From assembly GCA_013153965.1 (NCBI GenBank), contig JAADDJ010000018.1, positions 1-51,458 on the forward strand: 51,458 nucleotides of DNA. Reading direction: 5' to 3'. The notes beneath the pieces were generated by a model that was given only the letters and a program-made list of their open reading frames with translations, was not told the DNA's origin and made no database searches. Shown in pieces: positions 27,490 to 33,912 of the stretch (within the stretch, counting starts at the first letter, position 1; every line of letters begins with the position of its first letter). Source of the stretch: Thermotogae bacterium (GTDB taxonomy: Bacteria > Hydrothermota > Hydrothermia > LBFQ01). The position numbers were made by a program, and so were the translations under genes.

Positions 27490-27912
27490 GTGATTTGGGT
27501 CGTCGCCCTCGTCGTAAATGAGATAGCCGCGGTGGATAGGGATTCCGGTTGGGTGGAGCTGTACAACGGGAGCGGCGACGTGGTGGACCTCTCCAGATAC
27601 ACTCTAACCACCTCTTTCGGGACCTTCCAGTTGAGCGGTGTGATGGCGGGAGGGGAGCATAGGGTCTTTTACATCAGGCTCAAGGAGGACGGAGACAGCG
27701 TCGTTCTCCGGATGGATGGGAGCACCGTTGATTCTTACAGCTGGAGCAGCCTCCCCAGCAGCGGCAGTCTGGGACGCATACCCGATGGCACCGGCGATTT
27801 CCGATTCTTGGTGGTGGCCACACCCAATCGCCCCAACGAGCTCCCCGCCTCCCTTGACGAGCAATCTTGGGGTCGTATAAAGGCTCTCTTCGGTCCCGGT
27901 AAAAGGCGTTAG
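27490..27912 (+). CDS. lamin-tail domain (LTD) protein, 140 aa
   Basis: After a minimal hydrophobic N-terminus (MIWVVALVV) the protein is a single lamin-tail Ig-like domain: NEIAAVDRDSGWVELYNGSGDVVDLSRYTL, then SVVLRMDGSTVDSYSWSS, SLGRIPDGTGDFRF and TPNRPN. Bacterial LTDs occur in secreted or surface proteins and probably bind DNA, carbohydrate or protein, but the role is unproven. The short C-terminal tail ends in GKRR. The start is GTG 27490. The next gene starts 2 bases after the stop. Confidence 0.8.
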   Translation: MIWVVALVVNEIAAVDRDSGWVELYNGSGDVVDLSRYTLTTSFGTFQLSGVMAGGEHRVFYIRLKEDGDSVVLRMDGSTVDSYSWSSLPSSGSLGRIPDGTGDFRFLVVATPNRPNELPASLDEQSWGRIKALFGPGKRR

Positions 27913-27914
27913 TC

Positions 27915-28928
27915 TTGGCCTTCTGCAAATTCTTCGGGGAATGTCCGGTATGTAAGTTTCAGCATCTCCCCTACGACGACACTCTCAGATTGAAGGCCGA
28001 GGAGGTTGAGAGACTCTTCGGTCTGAAACCCCGGATCGTGCCGTCGCCTAAGGATAGAGCCTACAGGAGCAGGGTGATCTTCCATCTGCGGCGGCCCCAT
28101 CCCACGAATCTCATAATAGGATACACCTTGGAGAGGGGTTTCGTCTTCGGGGTGGATTCGTGCCCCCTGCTGGATCCGGCCTTGGAGGAGCTCATAAGGC
28201 CCCTCAACGGCATCCTCGCGTCCGCCCCCCTAAGCGTATGGGACGTTGAGAAGGGTAAGGGGAAGCTGGTGAGCCTCACGCTGGTGGGGGATGGGAACGG
28301 CGTGGTGTTGAGCCTCAACCTGCGCAAACCCCTATTCGTTAAGAGGCTCACGTTTGAGCTTATGGATAAACTTCCGTCCGTGGTGGGGGTTTGGTGGTCG
28401 GTGGGAACCTTCGGGGAGTACATCACGGGGGGCAGGGGGGAGATGTTCCGCACGCTCCGGAGAGGCAGATACGTCTTCAAGGTGTCGCCGTACGGCGACT
28501 ATCCCGACAACCTCCACATCCTCTCGGAGCTATGGAGGTATCTTGAGGGGCTCCTGGAGGGTAGGGTGGTGGCGTTCATGACGGGTCTCCACGTTCCCCC
28601 CTTCAAGATGAGCACCTACGTTGACCTTCGCGGCATGCCCGTAAGGGAGGTCAGGGAGACGGCCGAGGCCGTCGGGGTCAGTCCGGATGTACGTCAGATG
28701 GAGCCGGGAGCCTTCCTCCTCGTGAATCCCGAGCCTTACGATTTCGCCGTGATACACACGGACAGGGTGAAGGATAGGAGGGTGATGGATGTGGCGAGGC
28801 GGACGGTCCTCATAGGTGAATCCCCGCGAAGGTTGAGGGACTTCCTAACCGACGGGAAGCCCCGCGAGATGCTCCTGTTTGATCTCTACCCTTACACCGA
28901 TAAGTCCCTGCTGGTAGCCCTCTTGTAA
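27915..28928 (+). CDS. RlmD/TrmA-family protein with Fe-S cysteines but degenerate catalytic site, 337 aa
   Basis: The N-terminus CKFFGECPVCKFQHLPYDD and a later VDSCPLLDPALEEL reproduce the four-cysteine [4Fe-4S] pattern of RlmD-type 23S rRNA uracil methyltransferases (C4-x5-C10-x2-C13-x69-C83). The final FDLYPYTDKSLLVALL matches the family C-terminus (DMFPHT..VE.VALL). The catalytic SCNP is replaced by GESP (Glu302 at the cysteine position), the DPPR motif is absent, and the S-adenosylmethionine-binding glycine loop cannot be found. It also lacks a TRAM domain. It is therefore likely an inactive relative with a binding or regulatory role. The TTG start 2 bases after the lamin-tail stop suggests coupled translation. 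Confidence 0.75.
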   Translation: MAFCKFFGECPVCKFQHLPYDDTLRLKAEEVERLFGLKPRIVPSPKDRAYRSRVIFHLRRPHPTNLIIGYTLERGFVFGVDSCPLLDPALEELIRPLNGILASAPLSVWDVEKGKGKLVSLTLVGDGNGVVLSLNLRKPLFVKRLTFELMDKLPSVVGVWWSVGTFGEYITGGRGEMFRTLRRGRYVFKVSPYGDYPDNLHILSELWRYLEGLLEGRVVAFMTGLHVPPFKMSTYVDLRGMPVREVRETAEAVGVSPDVRQMEPGAFLLVNPEPYDFAVIHTDRVKDRRVMDVARRTVLIGESPRRLRDFLTDGKPREMLLFDLYPYTDKSLLVALL

Positions 28929-28960: not shown

Positions 28961-30571
28961 ATGGCGATGGGATTTCTGTTTTGGAATATCGGCAGCGGCT
29001 CGGAATACCTACGGATAGTTCCGAGAAGCCTCTCCATACTTCACAGGGAGCATATGTACGGTTATCGTCAGGAGGAAACTTACGTTTATTTTGATCGCTT
29101 TGGCCTCGTATCCAAGGTGGGATACATCACGCAGATGGAGCTGCGGGATGAGGACGGGGAGCAGGTCGGTACGTACTCCGCATCGTTCGTAGGTTTGAGT
29201 GGGATATACACCACGGCGCCCTTGGGGACCGAGGGCTGGACCTTCGGGGCCGGGCCGGGTCTCCTGCTCTCCAAGATACACTCCTACTCCGACTGGGCCC
29301 TAACCCTCAACGTCCTCGCGTACGGCTCCTTTGAGAGGGGCAGGCTTCTCCTGCGGGTGAATAATCTGGGAATCGGCTCGCTCGTACCGATACCGGAGAC
29401 CTTCGCCGGTGGATACGCGTACCTGCCCGGTGGAGTGAGATTGGGCGGCTTCCTCCGGCTCTTCGGCGATGTAGATGTTGATGGGGGGCTGTACATGGCC
29501 AAGCGCGTATCCGTGCTGGACCTTGAGGTGGTTCCGGCATACAGGTACATAACCTTCGGGGTCCATCTGGGCGTGGGTCCCCTGAAGTTCCGCTACAACT
29601 TCACCCATTCGTACTACGGTCTCAGCTCGCATCTGGTGGGTATAACGTACTTCTGGGGCGAGCAGAGGGGCATAGAGGAGCGTATAGGTCGGTTGGAGGT
29701 GCAGGTGGCCGAGCACGAGGAGAAGATAGCCTCCCTGCGCGACAGGATAAGGGCCATGGAGATAGAGGCCGAGAGGAGGGCGCAGGAGCTCATCAGAAAG
29801 GCCCGAAGGGAGAAAGACCCGGAGAAGGCGCTGGCTCTGGTGGAGATGGCGGCGGTCTTCCACTCCTCGCCGGAGATAGACCTCCTTCTGGACAGCCTGA
29901 AGAGGGAGTACGTGGAGAGCAAAAGGGCCCGCTACATAAAGAGGATAAACGCCTTCCTCCGCAACCGGATGTACGCGGACGCGTACGCCGAGGCTCTTGA
30001 ATTCGTGAAGGAGTTCCCCGACGACCCGAGGGCCGTGAAACTCTTCAAGGAGATAGAGGCGAGGATAAACCGCAGGGTGAGGAAGAGAGAGCAGGTGAAA
30101 CGGATAAAGGACAGCGCTCTGGACATATACTCCAACCGGAACATCCGGAAGGCCGACAGTCTGATAAACTCCGGCGAATACCTGAAGGCTCTGGAGATAC
30201 TGAAGGTGCTGCCCGACTCTCCGGAGAAGGTGGCCCTTCTGACCCGGATAAAGGAGAAGGCCAAGGATTACCTTGACTCGGCACGGGTGTATATGCGCAA
30301 GAGGGAGTGGGCCAAGGCCCGAACCTATCTGGAGGCTTACCTTGACCTGACGCAGGATCCCAAGGGGGTCAGCCTGCTCCAGAAGATAAACGAGAATATA
30401 CGCAAGCAGGCGGAGTATCATTACATGAAGGCTTTGGAGATGTATCAGAAGGGCGATATACTCGGCGCCTACGCTCACGCCGAGGTAGCCCACGAGCTTC
30501 AGCCCAACAACGAGAAGTACCGCAGGGTATTTCAGAGATTGTCCTCCATCTACAGGAGGTACGGTAGATGA
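28961..30571 (+). CDS. envelope protein: N-terminal beta-barrel-like part fused to coiled coil and TPR-like helices, 536 aa
   Basis: Residues 1-235 are Gly/Tyr-rich amphipathic strands like an outer-membrane barrel (for example KVGYITQMELRDEDGEQVGTY, RYNFTHSYYGLSSHLVGITYFW). At about residue 238 the character changes sharply to a charged heptad-like coiled coil (GRLEVQVAEHEEKIASLRDRIRAMEIEAERR). Paired helices resembling TPR units follow to the C-terminus. The TPR half is probably periplasmic and tethered to the outer membrane. The start is ATG 28961. The stop overlaps the next start as ATGA. I know no named family for the fusion. Confidence 0.7.
   Translation: MAMGFLFWNIGSGSEYLRIVPRSLSILHREHMYGYRQEETYVYFDRFGLVSKVGYITQMELRDEDGEQVGTYSASFVGLSGIYTTAPLGTEGWTFGAGPGLLLSKIHSYSDWALTLNVLAYGSFERGRLLLRVNNLGIGSLVPIPETFAGGYAYLPGGVRLGGFLRLFGDVDVDGGLYMAKRVSVLDLEVVPAYRYITFGVHLGVGPLKFRYNFTHSYYGLSSHLVGITYFWGEQRGIEERIGRLEVQVAEHEEKIASLRDRIRAMEIEAERRAQELIRKARREKDPEKALALVEMAAVFHSSPEIDLLLDSLKREYVESKRARYIKRINAFLRNRMYADAYAEALEFVKEFPDDPRAVKLFKEIEARINRRVRKREQVKRIKDSALDIYSNRNIRKADSLINSGEYLKALEILKVLPDSPEKVALLTRIKEKAKDYLDSARVYMRKREWAKARTYLEAYLDLTQDPKGVSLLQKINENIRKQAEYHYMKALEMYQKGDILGAYAHAEVAHELQPNNEKYRRVFQRLSSIYRRYGR
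30554..30560 (+). promoter_or_regulatory. strong Shine-Dalgarno AGGAGGT for gene at 30568
   Basis: A full AGGAGGT lies 7 bases before ATG 30568, inside the preceding gene. It shows that the organism uses canonical ribosome binding for operon-internal genes, in contrast to promoter-proximal ones. Confidence 0.8.
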
Positions 30572-33500
30572 GAAAACTTTTGGCAACTTTATCCCTTTTG
30601 ACGCTCGCCCTCCCTCTGGAGGGCTACGTTTCCACGTATAACCTAACGTCCTCCTCGCTCTTTAGGTACGCGGGTTCCGATATTGAGGTCCTACCCTCCG
30701 GCCTACTTCTGGGCTACACCTACGACGATTCCTCCGGCCAGCACGTCCTCTTTAAGATGGGGGCCGGTTATCCCCCCATAGCCTGCGGATTATCGCACAG
30801 CACCACGGCACCCCATCCCTCCGTCCATCTCGGCGTAGCCAACTCCATAATATACGTCTCGTCGGGATCCAATCTCATCGTGGTGGATACGGGACTGGGC
30901 GGTGCGATGATAGTCCCGGCGATGGGAGGGGTGGGTGCCACGGTCCATAGGGACGATACCCTGGCGCTGGTGTGGAGGATGGCCGATAGCGTAATCGTGG
31001 CACTGGGATATCCGGATGCGGGGGGACTCACACTTCTGACGACCTCCTCGCTGGGAGTGGGGACGACGATGGACGTGTCCTACGGTATAACCTCCACGTC
31101 CGACGGGAACTTTCTGGTCGCATTCCCCAACCGTACGGCCGACAGCCTCAACCTCGTTTTCGTCAGGCCCTCCTCATCCTTCTTCGTCCTTGATAGCGCG
31201 AGGGCCGTGGGTCTCCCGGGAGGATATACGGTGGATTCCATAGCCACCATCAAGGCCTTACGCACGTCCTTCGGCCCCATCATCGGTCTCACCTTAAGGT
31301 ACGGGGGATACAGATTCCCCGCGCTCCTACTCGGAGGGGATTCCTACCGGATGTTCGTGATGGATACCGTGGGTCTGCTGACCGACATTCACACCTCCTC
31401 CGACGGCCTGGTGGTGAGCATAGCAGAGGACGACAGGTCCTACGTTCAGGTCGTACCCCTGCCCATAGACTCCGGCCCCAGTCCGAAGGGGGCGGCATTT
31501 TGGGACGTTGAGATAGGAGGAAGTGCGGAGTTCTCGGTGGGGCATTACGTATCGCTGGGGATTCTGGATGGGGACTCCATCCTGCGCCTCGTGAAGTCCG
31601 ACCTCATCACGATACCCTCCGACGGATACGCCGACCGTCGCATATGGAATCCGTTGGACATTACGCTGGCATCGTCCTCGCCTTCCGTCCTCCCCACGTC
31701 CGCCTCCCTGGCTCCGACGATGGTATCGTGCTCGCCCCTGCCCATAACGGCGACCCCCGTATCCGCCGCGGATACGACGCAGCCCACCCTCGTGTCCTAT
31801 CCGACCGACGACGTCATCAGGGCCTACGATACTCTGGTATATGTGTTCTCCGAGGATATTGACCCCCCGACCTTCCAGTACGGCGTCAGCGTCTCCGCCC
31901 TCGGCGCCTCTCGCGCCCCGCTCTCATACACCTCCCTCTGCACGGGCGCGACCTGCTACCTCATCATCAGCGCGTACGGTGCCGAGAGCGTGGCCGTTAG
32001 CCTAACGGCCTTCATCACCGACACCGTAGGCAACCCTCTGGCTCCGGCCTCGCGGAGGAGCGACACCTTCAGCCTCCTACCCGCGGGTCCCCGCGTCGTC
32101 TTCACCCAGCCCGACAGCGGTGAGATAGACGTACCCTTGAACGCGAGTATAGGCGTGTGGTTCTCAACGGATATCAACCCGGCGACGATAAACTCCTACA
32201 CGGTTGATATAACCGACGGCTCCATATCCTACCCCTTCACCGTCACGTGTCCTCTGGCCAACATGTGCGTTCTGGATCCGCTGCGCGACTTCCCACCCGG
32301 AGGCGAGATAAGGGTCAGCTTCACGTCCGGCGTGCGCGACACCTACGATCAACCCTTGGAGCCCAAGGTCATAACCTTCCTCACCGTTCAGGCGGACACC
32401 TTGGCCCCACGGGTGAGCATGACCGTTCCCGACAGCGGAGCGATAAACGTCCCCCGCAACTTCTCCCTGAGCGTCCTATTCTCCAAGCCGATGGATACGA
32501 CCACGGTGGCGTCGGGAATAAGCCTGATGGGCTCGTCCTCCGGCGCCCACACCTTCAGCGTCTTCTGTCCCACCCTCCAGAACTGCGTGGTCAGACCTCT
32601 CAGCGCCTTTCTCTCCATGGAGGTAGTCACGGTCCGTTTCAACGCCTCAATCCTTGACACCACCGGCCGCTCCCTCATCCCCAAGAATGTTATCTTTCAG
32701 GTGGGTACCACGTACGATAACACCCCTCCCAACGTTCGGATAATCGCCCCCGACAACGATACGTTGGAGGTCTATCACCCCATAACGGAGCCCGTGAAGG
32801 CGGCCGTCTGGGACAATACGGGCATCCTGATGTCCTCGTGGGTCCTCGGCAGCCAAACCTACCACGCCCCCCTCTCCTGCAGGGGGCTTCCCTACGTGGC
32901 CTCGGATACCACCTGCTTGGACGTGTCCGAGACGCCATCCGGAGCCTACGTCCTGCGCGCCATAACCTACGACCTCGTGGGAACCCAGAGCGTGGATACG
33001 GTGATTCTTATCGTGCATGACACCGTGGCACCGAGGGTCTCATTCACCGAGCCCGCAAACGGCGAGATGGCCGTATCCCCCTACACGGACGTCTCCATCA
33101 CATTCACCGAGCCCATGGATACGACGTGGGTTCCTACGTCCGCCGTAAGCGTGGTCGTGGGCGGGACATCCGTCCCCTTCTCCCACGTCTGGAACACCCC
33201 CTACGTTCTGAGAATCACCTTCTCCGACGCCCTCCCTTGGGACTCCTCCGTAATCGTCTCCCTAAGCTCCCTGCGGGACCTCTCCGGGAACGAGATGGTG
33301 CCCTACACATTCTCCTTCAGGGTGGTGGGGGAAACGCAGGTTGATGTCAGATGGGTGAGACTGGAGAACGACTCGGTCTTCGCCGGTAAGAGCGATAGCA
33401 CCCTGGTGGTGGCCGTCGCCCGCTCCGACCACTCCATAACCAAGGCCTTCGTGATGATAGGGGACGGGGACAGCATTCCGATGCTCCCGGCGGATGGGTC

Positions 33501-33912
33501 CTACGACGAGCCGGAGGAGACCCTACAGGTCTATGTGGGTACGGCCTCTCTGGAGCCCGGGACCTATCCCCTGCGCGTGAAGGCTTGGAATCCCTACGTC
33601 TTCGGCGTATCCGACCCCAAGGAGCTCTACGTTCTGGACGTTCCCCTCCTGTCGCCGGAGAACGTTTCGGTCTATCCGAGTCCGGTTAGGACGTCCGGGA
33701 GGGTGAGGGTGGTCGTCGGGGAGCCCACAACCCTGACGGTTGAGGTGTTTGACCTCAAGTTCCGGCGGGTGATGTACGACAGGAGGACCTACGAGACTCC
33801 GGCCATATACGAGGAGCCTCTGCCGGACCTGCCGGCGGGCGTCTATCTCCTGCGGGTCAGGGCGGGGGATATGGTGGTCAAGAAGTGGTTCGCCGTCGTG
33901 AAGGGGGAGTAG
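30568..33912 (+). CDS. secreted surface protein with SbsA/Big_5-type Ig-like domains and C-terminal sorting-type domain, 1114 aa
   Basis: A conventional signal peptide (MRKLLATLSLLTLALPLEG) is followed by about 370 residues of beta-propeller-like sequence. Four Ig-like repeats come next, starting near residues 405 (PTLVSYPTDD), 510 (PRVVFTQPDSGEIDVPL), 612 (PRVSMTVPDSGAINVPR) and 825 (PRVSFTEPANGEMAVSP); each has the xPxxGexxVxxxxxIxVxFSxPMD pattern of SbsA-type domains. The C-terminal 85 residues (VSVYPSPVRTSGRVRVVV ... LPAGVYLLRVRAG) match T9SS type A-like sorting domains. It is likely a large adhesin or S-layer-associated protein. It is operon-coupled to the barrel/TPR gene by a 4-base overlap. 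Confidence 0.82.
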   Translation: MRKLLATLSLLTLALPLEGYVSTYNLTSSSLFRYAGSDIEVLPSGLLLGYTYDDSSGQHVLFKMGAGYPPIACGLSHSTTAPHPSVHLGVANSIIYVSSGSNLIVVDTGLGGAMIVPAMGGVGATVHRDDTLALVWRMADSVIVALGYPDAGGLTLLTTSSLGVGTTMDVSYGITSTSDGNFLVAFPNRTADSLNLVFVRPSSSFFVLDSARAVGLPGGYTVDSIATIKALRTSFGPIIGLTLRYGGYRFPALLLGGDSYRMFVMDTVGLLTDIHTSSDGLVVSIAEDDRSYVQVVPLPIDSGPSPKGAAFWDVEIGGSAEFSVGHYVSLGILDGDSILRLVKSDLITIPSDGYADRRIWNPLDITLASSSPSVLPTSASLAPTMVSCSPLPITATPVSAADTTQPTLVSYPTDDVIRAYDTLVYVFSEDIDPPTFQYGVSVSALGASRAPLSYTSLCTGATCYLIISAYGAESVAVSLTAFITDTVGNPLAPASRRSDTFSLLPAGPRVVFTQPDSGEIDVPLNASIGVWFSTDINPATINSYTVDITDGSISYPFTVTCPLANMCVLDPLRDFPPGGEIRVSFTSGVRDTYDQPLEPKVITFLTVQADTLAPRVSMTVPDSGAINVPRNFSLSVLFSKPMDTTTVASGISLMGSSSGAHTFSVFCPTLQNCVVRPLSAFLSMEVVTVRFNASILDTTGRSLIPKNVIFQVGTTYDNTPPNVRIIAPDNDTLEVYHPITEPVKAAVWDNTGILMSSWVLGSQTYHAPLSCRGLPYVASDTTCLDVSETPSGAYVLRAITYDLVGTQSVDTVILIVHDTVAPRVSFTEPANGEMAVSPYTDVSITFTEPMDTTWVPTSAVSVVVGGTSVPFSHVWNTPYVLRITFSDALPWDSSVIVSLSSLRDLSGNEMVPYTFSFRVVGETQVDVRWVRLENDSVFAGKSDSTLVVAVARSDHSITKAFVMIGDGDSIPMLPADGSYDEPEETLQVYVGTASLEPGTYPLRVKAWNPYVFGVSDPKELYVLDVPLLSPENVSVYPSPVRTSGRVRVVVGEPTTLTVEVFDLKFRRVMYDRRTYETPAIYEEPLPDLPAGVYLLRVRAGDMVVKKWFAVVKGE

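Follow-up and report, generated by a model that had tools for sequence, protein, structure and literature searches.

A conserved RlmD descendant that lost its catalytic residues and kept the iron–sulphur cluster cysteines in an order of uncultured bacteria

Gene and protein at the locus

The window, which is the whole 51,458-nucleotide stretch of DNA that was analysed, contained a gene for a shortened relative of the m5U1939 methyltransferase RlmD/RumA, here called pseudo-RlmD, directly behind a gene for a lamin-tail domain (LTD) protein.

27490–27912, forward strand: LTD gene, directly 5′ of the pseudo-RlmD gene (PF00932, E 1.3e-9)
27915–28928, forward strand: pseudo-RlmD gene (337 residues, TTG start, TAA stop)

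The LTD gene ended 2 nt upstream of the pseudo-RlmD start, as expected from the sequence-only reading, in which the frame was translated behind a lamin-tail gene, and the two genes were neighbours in each of the eight genomes of family f1, to which the window belongs. A GA-rich stretch was located a few bases 5′ of the start, which was AAAAGGCG here and GAGGCG in most orthologues, and most orthologues of genus g1 carried it. Further downstream (28961–33912), a gene for a TPR-repeat protein with an N-terminal barrel-like part was followed by a gene for a 1114-residue repeat protein with a C-terminal sorting-like tail, and these two genes came after the pseudo-RlmD gene in four of the six genus g1 genomes.

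The protein matched the NCBIfam RlmD model TIGR00479 only over residues 3–123, with an E value of 1.1e-8, and its score of 34.4 bits did not reach the curated cut-off of 183.55 bits. A PDB sequence search found the archaeal TrmU54 (PDB code 2jjq) over residues 4–122 with an E value of 1.4e-13, and a Pfam search gave no match over threshold. The calculated pI was 8.95–9.88; active RlmDs were mostly basic as well. No other RlmD was found in the source genome, which encoded a SufB/D protein.

Predicted structure

The AlphaFold2 models, built from five to six sequences, had mean pLDDT values of 61.8 and 63.2 (moderate confidence), with values below 50 for the cluster loop (residues 1–12). When the first model was searched with Foldseek, the top ranks contained only RlmD, RlmCD, TrmU54, and TrmA, which were matched over the whole length with E values of 1.8e-17 to 7.8e-12, and the next family followed at 9.9e-6. 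VIA-align gave Z scores of 12.9–11.3 for nine entries of the RlmD/RlmCD/TrmA type, and 6.4 for the best other chain. These full-length matches identify the C-terminal half as what is left of the methyltransferase domain.

28497–28925, forward strand: remnant of the SAM-methyltransferase domain (residues ~195–337), with the core strand order still predicted (models of mean pLDDT 62–63)

No helix was predicted between the first two strands (residues ~218–221 and 234–236), the site of the SAM loop and helix in active enzymes, and both models had low confidence there.

The full-length structural matches, together with the TIGR00479 and 2jjq matches within residues 3–123, confirmed the earlier description of the protein as RlmD-like. 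The protein is a descendant of RlmD/RumA by shared fold and common ancestry, and it is vertically related to the RlmDs found in its class. It resembled RlmD/RumA (TIGR00479; E. coli, PDB codes 1uwv and 2bh2) in the fold, the domain order (central, then methyltransferase), the spacing of four cysteines, and the FDxxP motif. The best match in both sequence and structure was P. abyssi TrmU54 (PAB0719-type, PDB codes 2jjq and 2vs1), which has the four cluster cysteines as well but is an active archaeal SAM methyltransferase with intact motifs.

Loss of the catalytic features

Pseudo-RlmD was compared with 20 full-length RlmDs from its class, each of which had the DPPR motif, the SCxP motif, and the general-base Glu. 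The corresponding regions of the remnant were assigned by alignment.

28563–28625, forward strand: former SAM motif I region (residues 217–237), in which D-x-Y-x-G-V-G is replaced by A-F-M-T-G-L-H, six residues shorter and with no helix predicted between the two strands
28755–28766, forward strand: HTDR (residues 281–284) in place of DPPR
28815–28826, forward strand: GESP (residues 301–304), the counterpart of SCNP in the sequence-only reading, variable in orthologues
28878–28898, forward strand: FDLYPYT (residues 322–328), the half of the C-terminal motif that is still present; active enzymes have the catalytic Glu after it, where Leu332 (28908–28910) stands here

Unlike RlmD/RumA, the f1 proteins lacked the TRAM domain, SAM motif I, the DPPR motif, the nucleophile Cys, and the general-base Glu; judged by these function-defining features, the protein descends from the RlmD enzyme family without belonging to it. 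The five residues that act on the uracil (Phe263, Gln265, Asp363, Cys389, and Glu424 in RumA; equivalents between RlmCD and RumA were taken from PMC6235398) were all lost in f1 and in genus g3, and four of the five were lost in genus g4. The uracil-contacting Phe and Gln were gone in f1, where SFFQ was changed to GDYP or GEYP.

Several claims made from the sequence could be examined here. The DPPR motif was indeed gone, with HTDR at its place, and the SAM loop was unrecognisable in the alignment, in keeping with the helix-free modelled region of low confidence. The replacement of SCNP by GESP was right as to the loss of the nucleophile Cys, whereas the pairing itself depended on the alignment, the nucleophile column of MAFFT being a few residues earlier. 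The loss is independent of the alignment because no Cys was present after residue 83, and an alternative Cys nucleophile, named beforehand as a refuting result, was ruled out by the total of four cysteines, none of them past that residue. Glu302, which had been singled out, was not conserved, and the orthologues read GESP, GTDA, GKDP, GKNP, GGDV, and GSRM, which gives no support to a special role for this residue. Nor was the C-terminal motif intact as described, since only F-D-x-x-P-[YH]-T was left and the general-base Glu (RumA Glu424) was Leu or Thr in f1. The claim of an intact C-terminal motif therefore failed at its catalytically important residue.

An enzyme that is still active with altered chemistry, which modifies rRNA by methylation or in another way with none of the canonical Cys, Asp, and Glu residues, could draw on the Rossmann-like core that is still predicted, and on genus g3, which keeps part of motif I (DAFGSVG) and gives weak matches to methyltransferase Pfam profiles. 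However, the disappearance of all five uracil-acting residues in f1, the shortening of motif I by six residues with no predicted helix, and the lack of any Cys in the C-terminal part make continued catalysis very unlikely.

Retention of the cluster cysteines

The four presumed cluster ligands were assigned by alignment with RumA, using the ligand numbers of PMC5614603.

27924–27926, forward strand: Cys4 codon, presumed cluster ligand 1 (RumA Cys81)
27942–27944, forward strand: Cys10 codon, presumed cluster ligand 2 (RumA Cys87)
27951–27953, forward strand: Cys13 codon, presumed cluster ligand 3 (RumA Cys90)
28161–28163, forward strand: Cys83 codon, presumed cluster ligand 4 (RumA Cys161)

Residues Cys4, Cys10, Cys13, and Cys83 aligned with the RumA ligands in the pattern CX5CX2C ... 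C, and the RlmD spacing that had been read from the sequence was thus correct. These residues were the sole cysteines of the protein. Exactly four cysteines were present in all seven full f1 proteins and in both g3 proteins, and the four cluster cysteines were invariant in every degenerate copy of the order (f1, g3, and g4). Retention was evaluated over 70 columns outside TRAM that were near-invariant in the 20 active RlmDs from the class, namely the four cluster cysteines and 66 others. The cysteines were kept at 4/4, and the other near-invariant residues were kept in all members at 15/66 in f1, 31/66 in g3, and 18/66 in g4. The Fisher p values for cysteine retention were 0.004, 0.057, and 0.008, respectively, and the three tests are non-independent if the dead form arose once. 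The position of the RNA-contacting Gly89 of RumA was not Gly in f1 and g3 (CPVC, CPHC, and CPYC).

The cluster of RumA stabilises the fold, and the neighbouring Gly89 makes a water-mediated RNA contact, while RlmCD methylates without a cluster (PMC5614603). Because RlmCD is active without it, the cluster is not catalytic. The preservation of its ligands in proteins without the catalytic residues suggests that the cluster and RNA binding serve a role apart from methylation. A metal cluster, probably [4Fe-4S] and not Zn, would still be bound by the four cysteines.

Distribution and forms in the order

The order consists of uncultured WOR-3-type bacteria, of which 12 genomes were examined. Every one of them encoded a single degenerate RlmD relative and no intact RlmD, as no protein in any of the 12 reached the RlmD HMM cut-off. 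The shortened form was found in all eight f1 genomes. In genus g3 of family f2 (n = 2), a 388-residue form without TRAM kept most of the methyltransferase domain (DAFGSVG, SPPE, and SRN). In genus g4 (n = 2), a form of 374–380 residues matched the N-terminal (TRAM) end of RlmD models and had no SAM loop. Judged by their sequences, the forms of g4, g3, and f1 are three stages of degeneration, and the pseudoenzyme is more widespread and more varied than was first described.

Outside the order, an intact RlmD was found in 23 of the 28 class genomes, and none was found in family f10 and in one incomplete genome. In f10 (G029, G031, G033, and G037), RlmD was apparently lost altogether. When 147 genomes from the phylum were scanned, many proved to have lost the gene, and no comparable degenerate form was found in other lineages among the matches listed. 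Four genomes (G099, G100, G101, and G103) encoded a second RlmD-like protein of ~375 residues without the N-terminal TRAM part (165–191 bits) beside an ordinary RlmD. In a tree of the central region, limited by long branches, a single clade of dead copies was not rejected (p-AU 0.45) and was recovered with a bootstrap agreement of 62%; a single origin of the dead form is compatible with this tree but not proven.

The gene neighbourhoods were different in the two families. In f2, the degenerate gene was always directly 3′ of an LptE-like lipoprotein gene (L084 9753–10295, L085 2040–2528, L082 4167–4637, and L083 6787–7257), which in one of three tested cases matched Pfam LptE with an E value of only 0.005, below the cut-off. 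A shared operon was rejected as a functional clue, the LTD adjacency being kept within f1 and the LptE-like adjacency within f2, with nothing common to both. Ribosomal genes were absent from the f1 and f2 neighbourhoods.

This difference in neighbourhoods, the loss of TRAM, and the many near-invariant positions of f1 that are absent from active RlmDs would all fit a protein that was neofunctionalised for another RNA (e.g. tRNA) or a non-RNA partner, in which the invariant, f1-specific motifs GVWW, GGRGEMFR, SPYGxYPDN, and TGLYVPP would provide a novel surface for binding, with Zn as a possible metal at the cysteines. The g3 and g4 proteins, however, keep the cluster cysteines without the f1 motifs, which indicates a shared constraint older than the f1 surface, and a new partner of this kind is considered possible but rather unlikely.

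Selection on the gene

Codon models for genus g1 gave an omega of 0.084 for the whole gene, 0.064 for residues 3–185, and 0.094 for residues 186–337, and fixing omega at 1 was worse by 411 lnL units. Both halves are constrained, and thus the whole protein is in use. The least diverged pair (L006 and L007, dS 0.51) gave a dN/dS of 0.077; since sites were near saturation in more distant pairs, this close-pair figure is the safest. The dN/dS values of the g3 and g4 pairs were 0.10 and 0.27, respectively. No in-frame stop, set beforehand as a sign of decay, was found in any orthologue.

Gene decay or a binning artefact could be read from the absence of RlmD from several lineages of the phylum, which marks it as dispensable, and from a single frameshift in one copy (G007). 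That copy comes from a metagenome-assembled genome with a completeness of only 57%, and the next frame still encodes the C-terminal end of the protein with FFFDVEPYT. The gene was intact in the other 11 of the 12 genomes, the identity across genus g1 was 66–53%, and the position behind the LTD gene was conserved in f1. The strong purifying selection in g1 (dN/dS 0.08) in the main rules out decay, which is hardly credible as an explanation. The view that the gene is not decaying was accordingly sustained by the dN/dS of 0.084, the orthologue in 8/8 f1 genomes, and the degenerate relative in 12/12 genomes of the order. The proposal of an RlmD-derived pseudoenzyme was likewise upheld by the loss of the catalytic residues under purifying selection, from which the absence of activity is deduced. 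A conserved, non-methylating RlmD pseudoenzyme is thus very probable.

The modification target and possible replacement

Target loss was rejected, as the U1939 context CCTAAGGTAGCGAAATTCCTTG was unchanged in G002, G008, G009, and G010, whose 23S genes are contiguous (G002 carries some contamination). The source genome has no assembled 23S gene and was outside this comparison. Substitution of the RlmFO type was also rejected. Each complete genome of the order had one full-length TrmFO and no second full copy, and the other matches of the search were MnmG-type proteins of 580–670 residues; hence no paralogue of the RlmFO type is available for m5U1939. A dual-specific TrmFO might still cover m5U1939. 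On the simplest reading of these genes, the order would lack m5U1939 yet have kept the protein. SAM-dependent m5U1939 methylation was also lost in Mollicutes (PMC7226160), in which the RlmD gene is lost, a pseudogene, or replaced by RlmFO, whereas the order keeps a dead but constrained protein and has no second full TrmFO.

Group I introns (RF00028) were found in the 23S genes at L072 3411–4121 (G011) and L074 2474–3208 (G007), at the L1931 site, which lies ~8 nt before U1939, and an interruption at the same place near position 880 of L073 (G001) had no passing Rfam match. A general link between the protein and these introns was rejected, as introns or interruptions were present only in G001, G007, and G011 and the protein in all 12 genomes.

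Possible function of the pseudoenzyme

The favoured function of pseudo-RlmD, with about an even chance of being right, is that of an assembly factor or chaperone that binds rRNA independently of methylation, through an RNA-binding domain braced by the cluster. The metal cluster would brace the cluster loop and the central domain, the parts that touch RNA in RumA. The basic protein would still bind 23S rRNA while the large subunit is assembled, most likely near U1939 in domain IV, and would act as a folding or assembly factor and not as a methylase. The retained RNA-binding fold and the basic pI support RNA binding indirectly. With catalysis lost, binding would be the sole selected function; f1 and g3 may then have lost the TRAM domain, and the SAM pocket may have eroded in f1 and g4.

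Several known proteins make such a role plausible. The Q283A and D381A mutants of RlmCD still bind RNA, and active-site losses leave binding largely intact (PMC6235398). RlmB and RlmL continue to promote assembly of the 50S subunit when they are catalytically dead (PMC11194073), and TrmA is a tRNA chaperone (PMC11301382). TrmA, RlmB, and RlmKL resemble pseudo-RlmD in having roles that need no catalysis (PMC11301382 and PMC11194073), but they are still active enzymes in nature, whereas catalysis appears to be lost across the order. Several points are against an assembly role. Both f1 and g3 lack the RNA-contacting Gly89 and also TRAM, which is an RNA-binding module in this family. No ribosomal genes are neighbours, f1 and f2 have different neighbour genes, and the models are of limited confidence (mean pLDDT 62–63). 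A literature search of partial coverage found no paper on a dead RlmD homologue.

The retained ligands could also belong to an iron–sulphur checkpoint or sensor, in which the state of the cluster controls binding to the ribosome or another RNA and couples translation to iron or redox conditions, as proposed for the mitochondrial ribosome assembly factor METTL17/Rsm22. METTL17 has a methyltransferase fold with [4Fe-4S] ligands that are more conserved than the SAM motif (PMC11046306), and the same pattern was found in the degenerate RlmDs. METTL17/Rsm22 is of another family, acts on the small subunit, and has another cysteine arrangement, so that the likeness is a functional parallel and not common membership. 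The conservation of the ligands would be just as well explained by a cluster with a purely structural role, and neither a regulatory partner nor conserved redox-linked neighbour genes were found in the f1 and f2 neighbourhoods; a sensor is unlikely. Its full form, in which the order turned RlmD, independently of METTL17, into a non-methylating assembly checkpoint whose cluster gates rRNA binding so that large-subunit assembly senses iron or redox state, is decidedly doubtful.

The reason for the cluster of RlmD has so far been unclear, as RlmCD does the same reaction without one (PMC5614603). In a natural lineage that dropped catalysis but retained the cluster ligands, the two functions come apart, and a non-catalytic role of the cluster and of RlmD becomes directly testable. 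The order may also provide a bacterial parallel to METTL17, in which the SAM site is lost before the metal ligands. If an entire order has preserved an rRNA methylase that is naturally dead, binding by itself can be what selection maintains.
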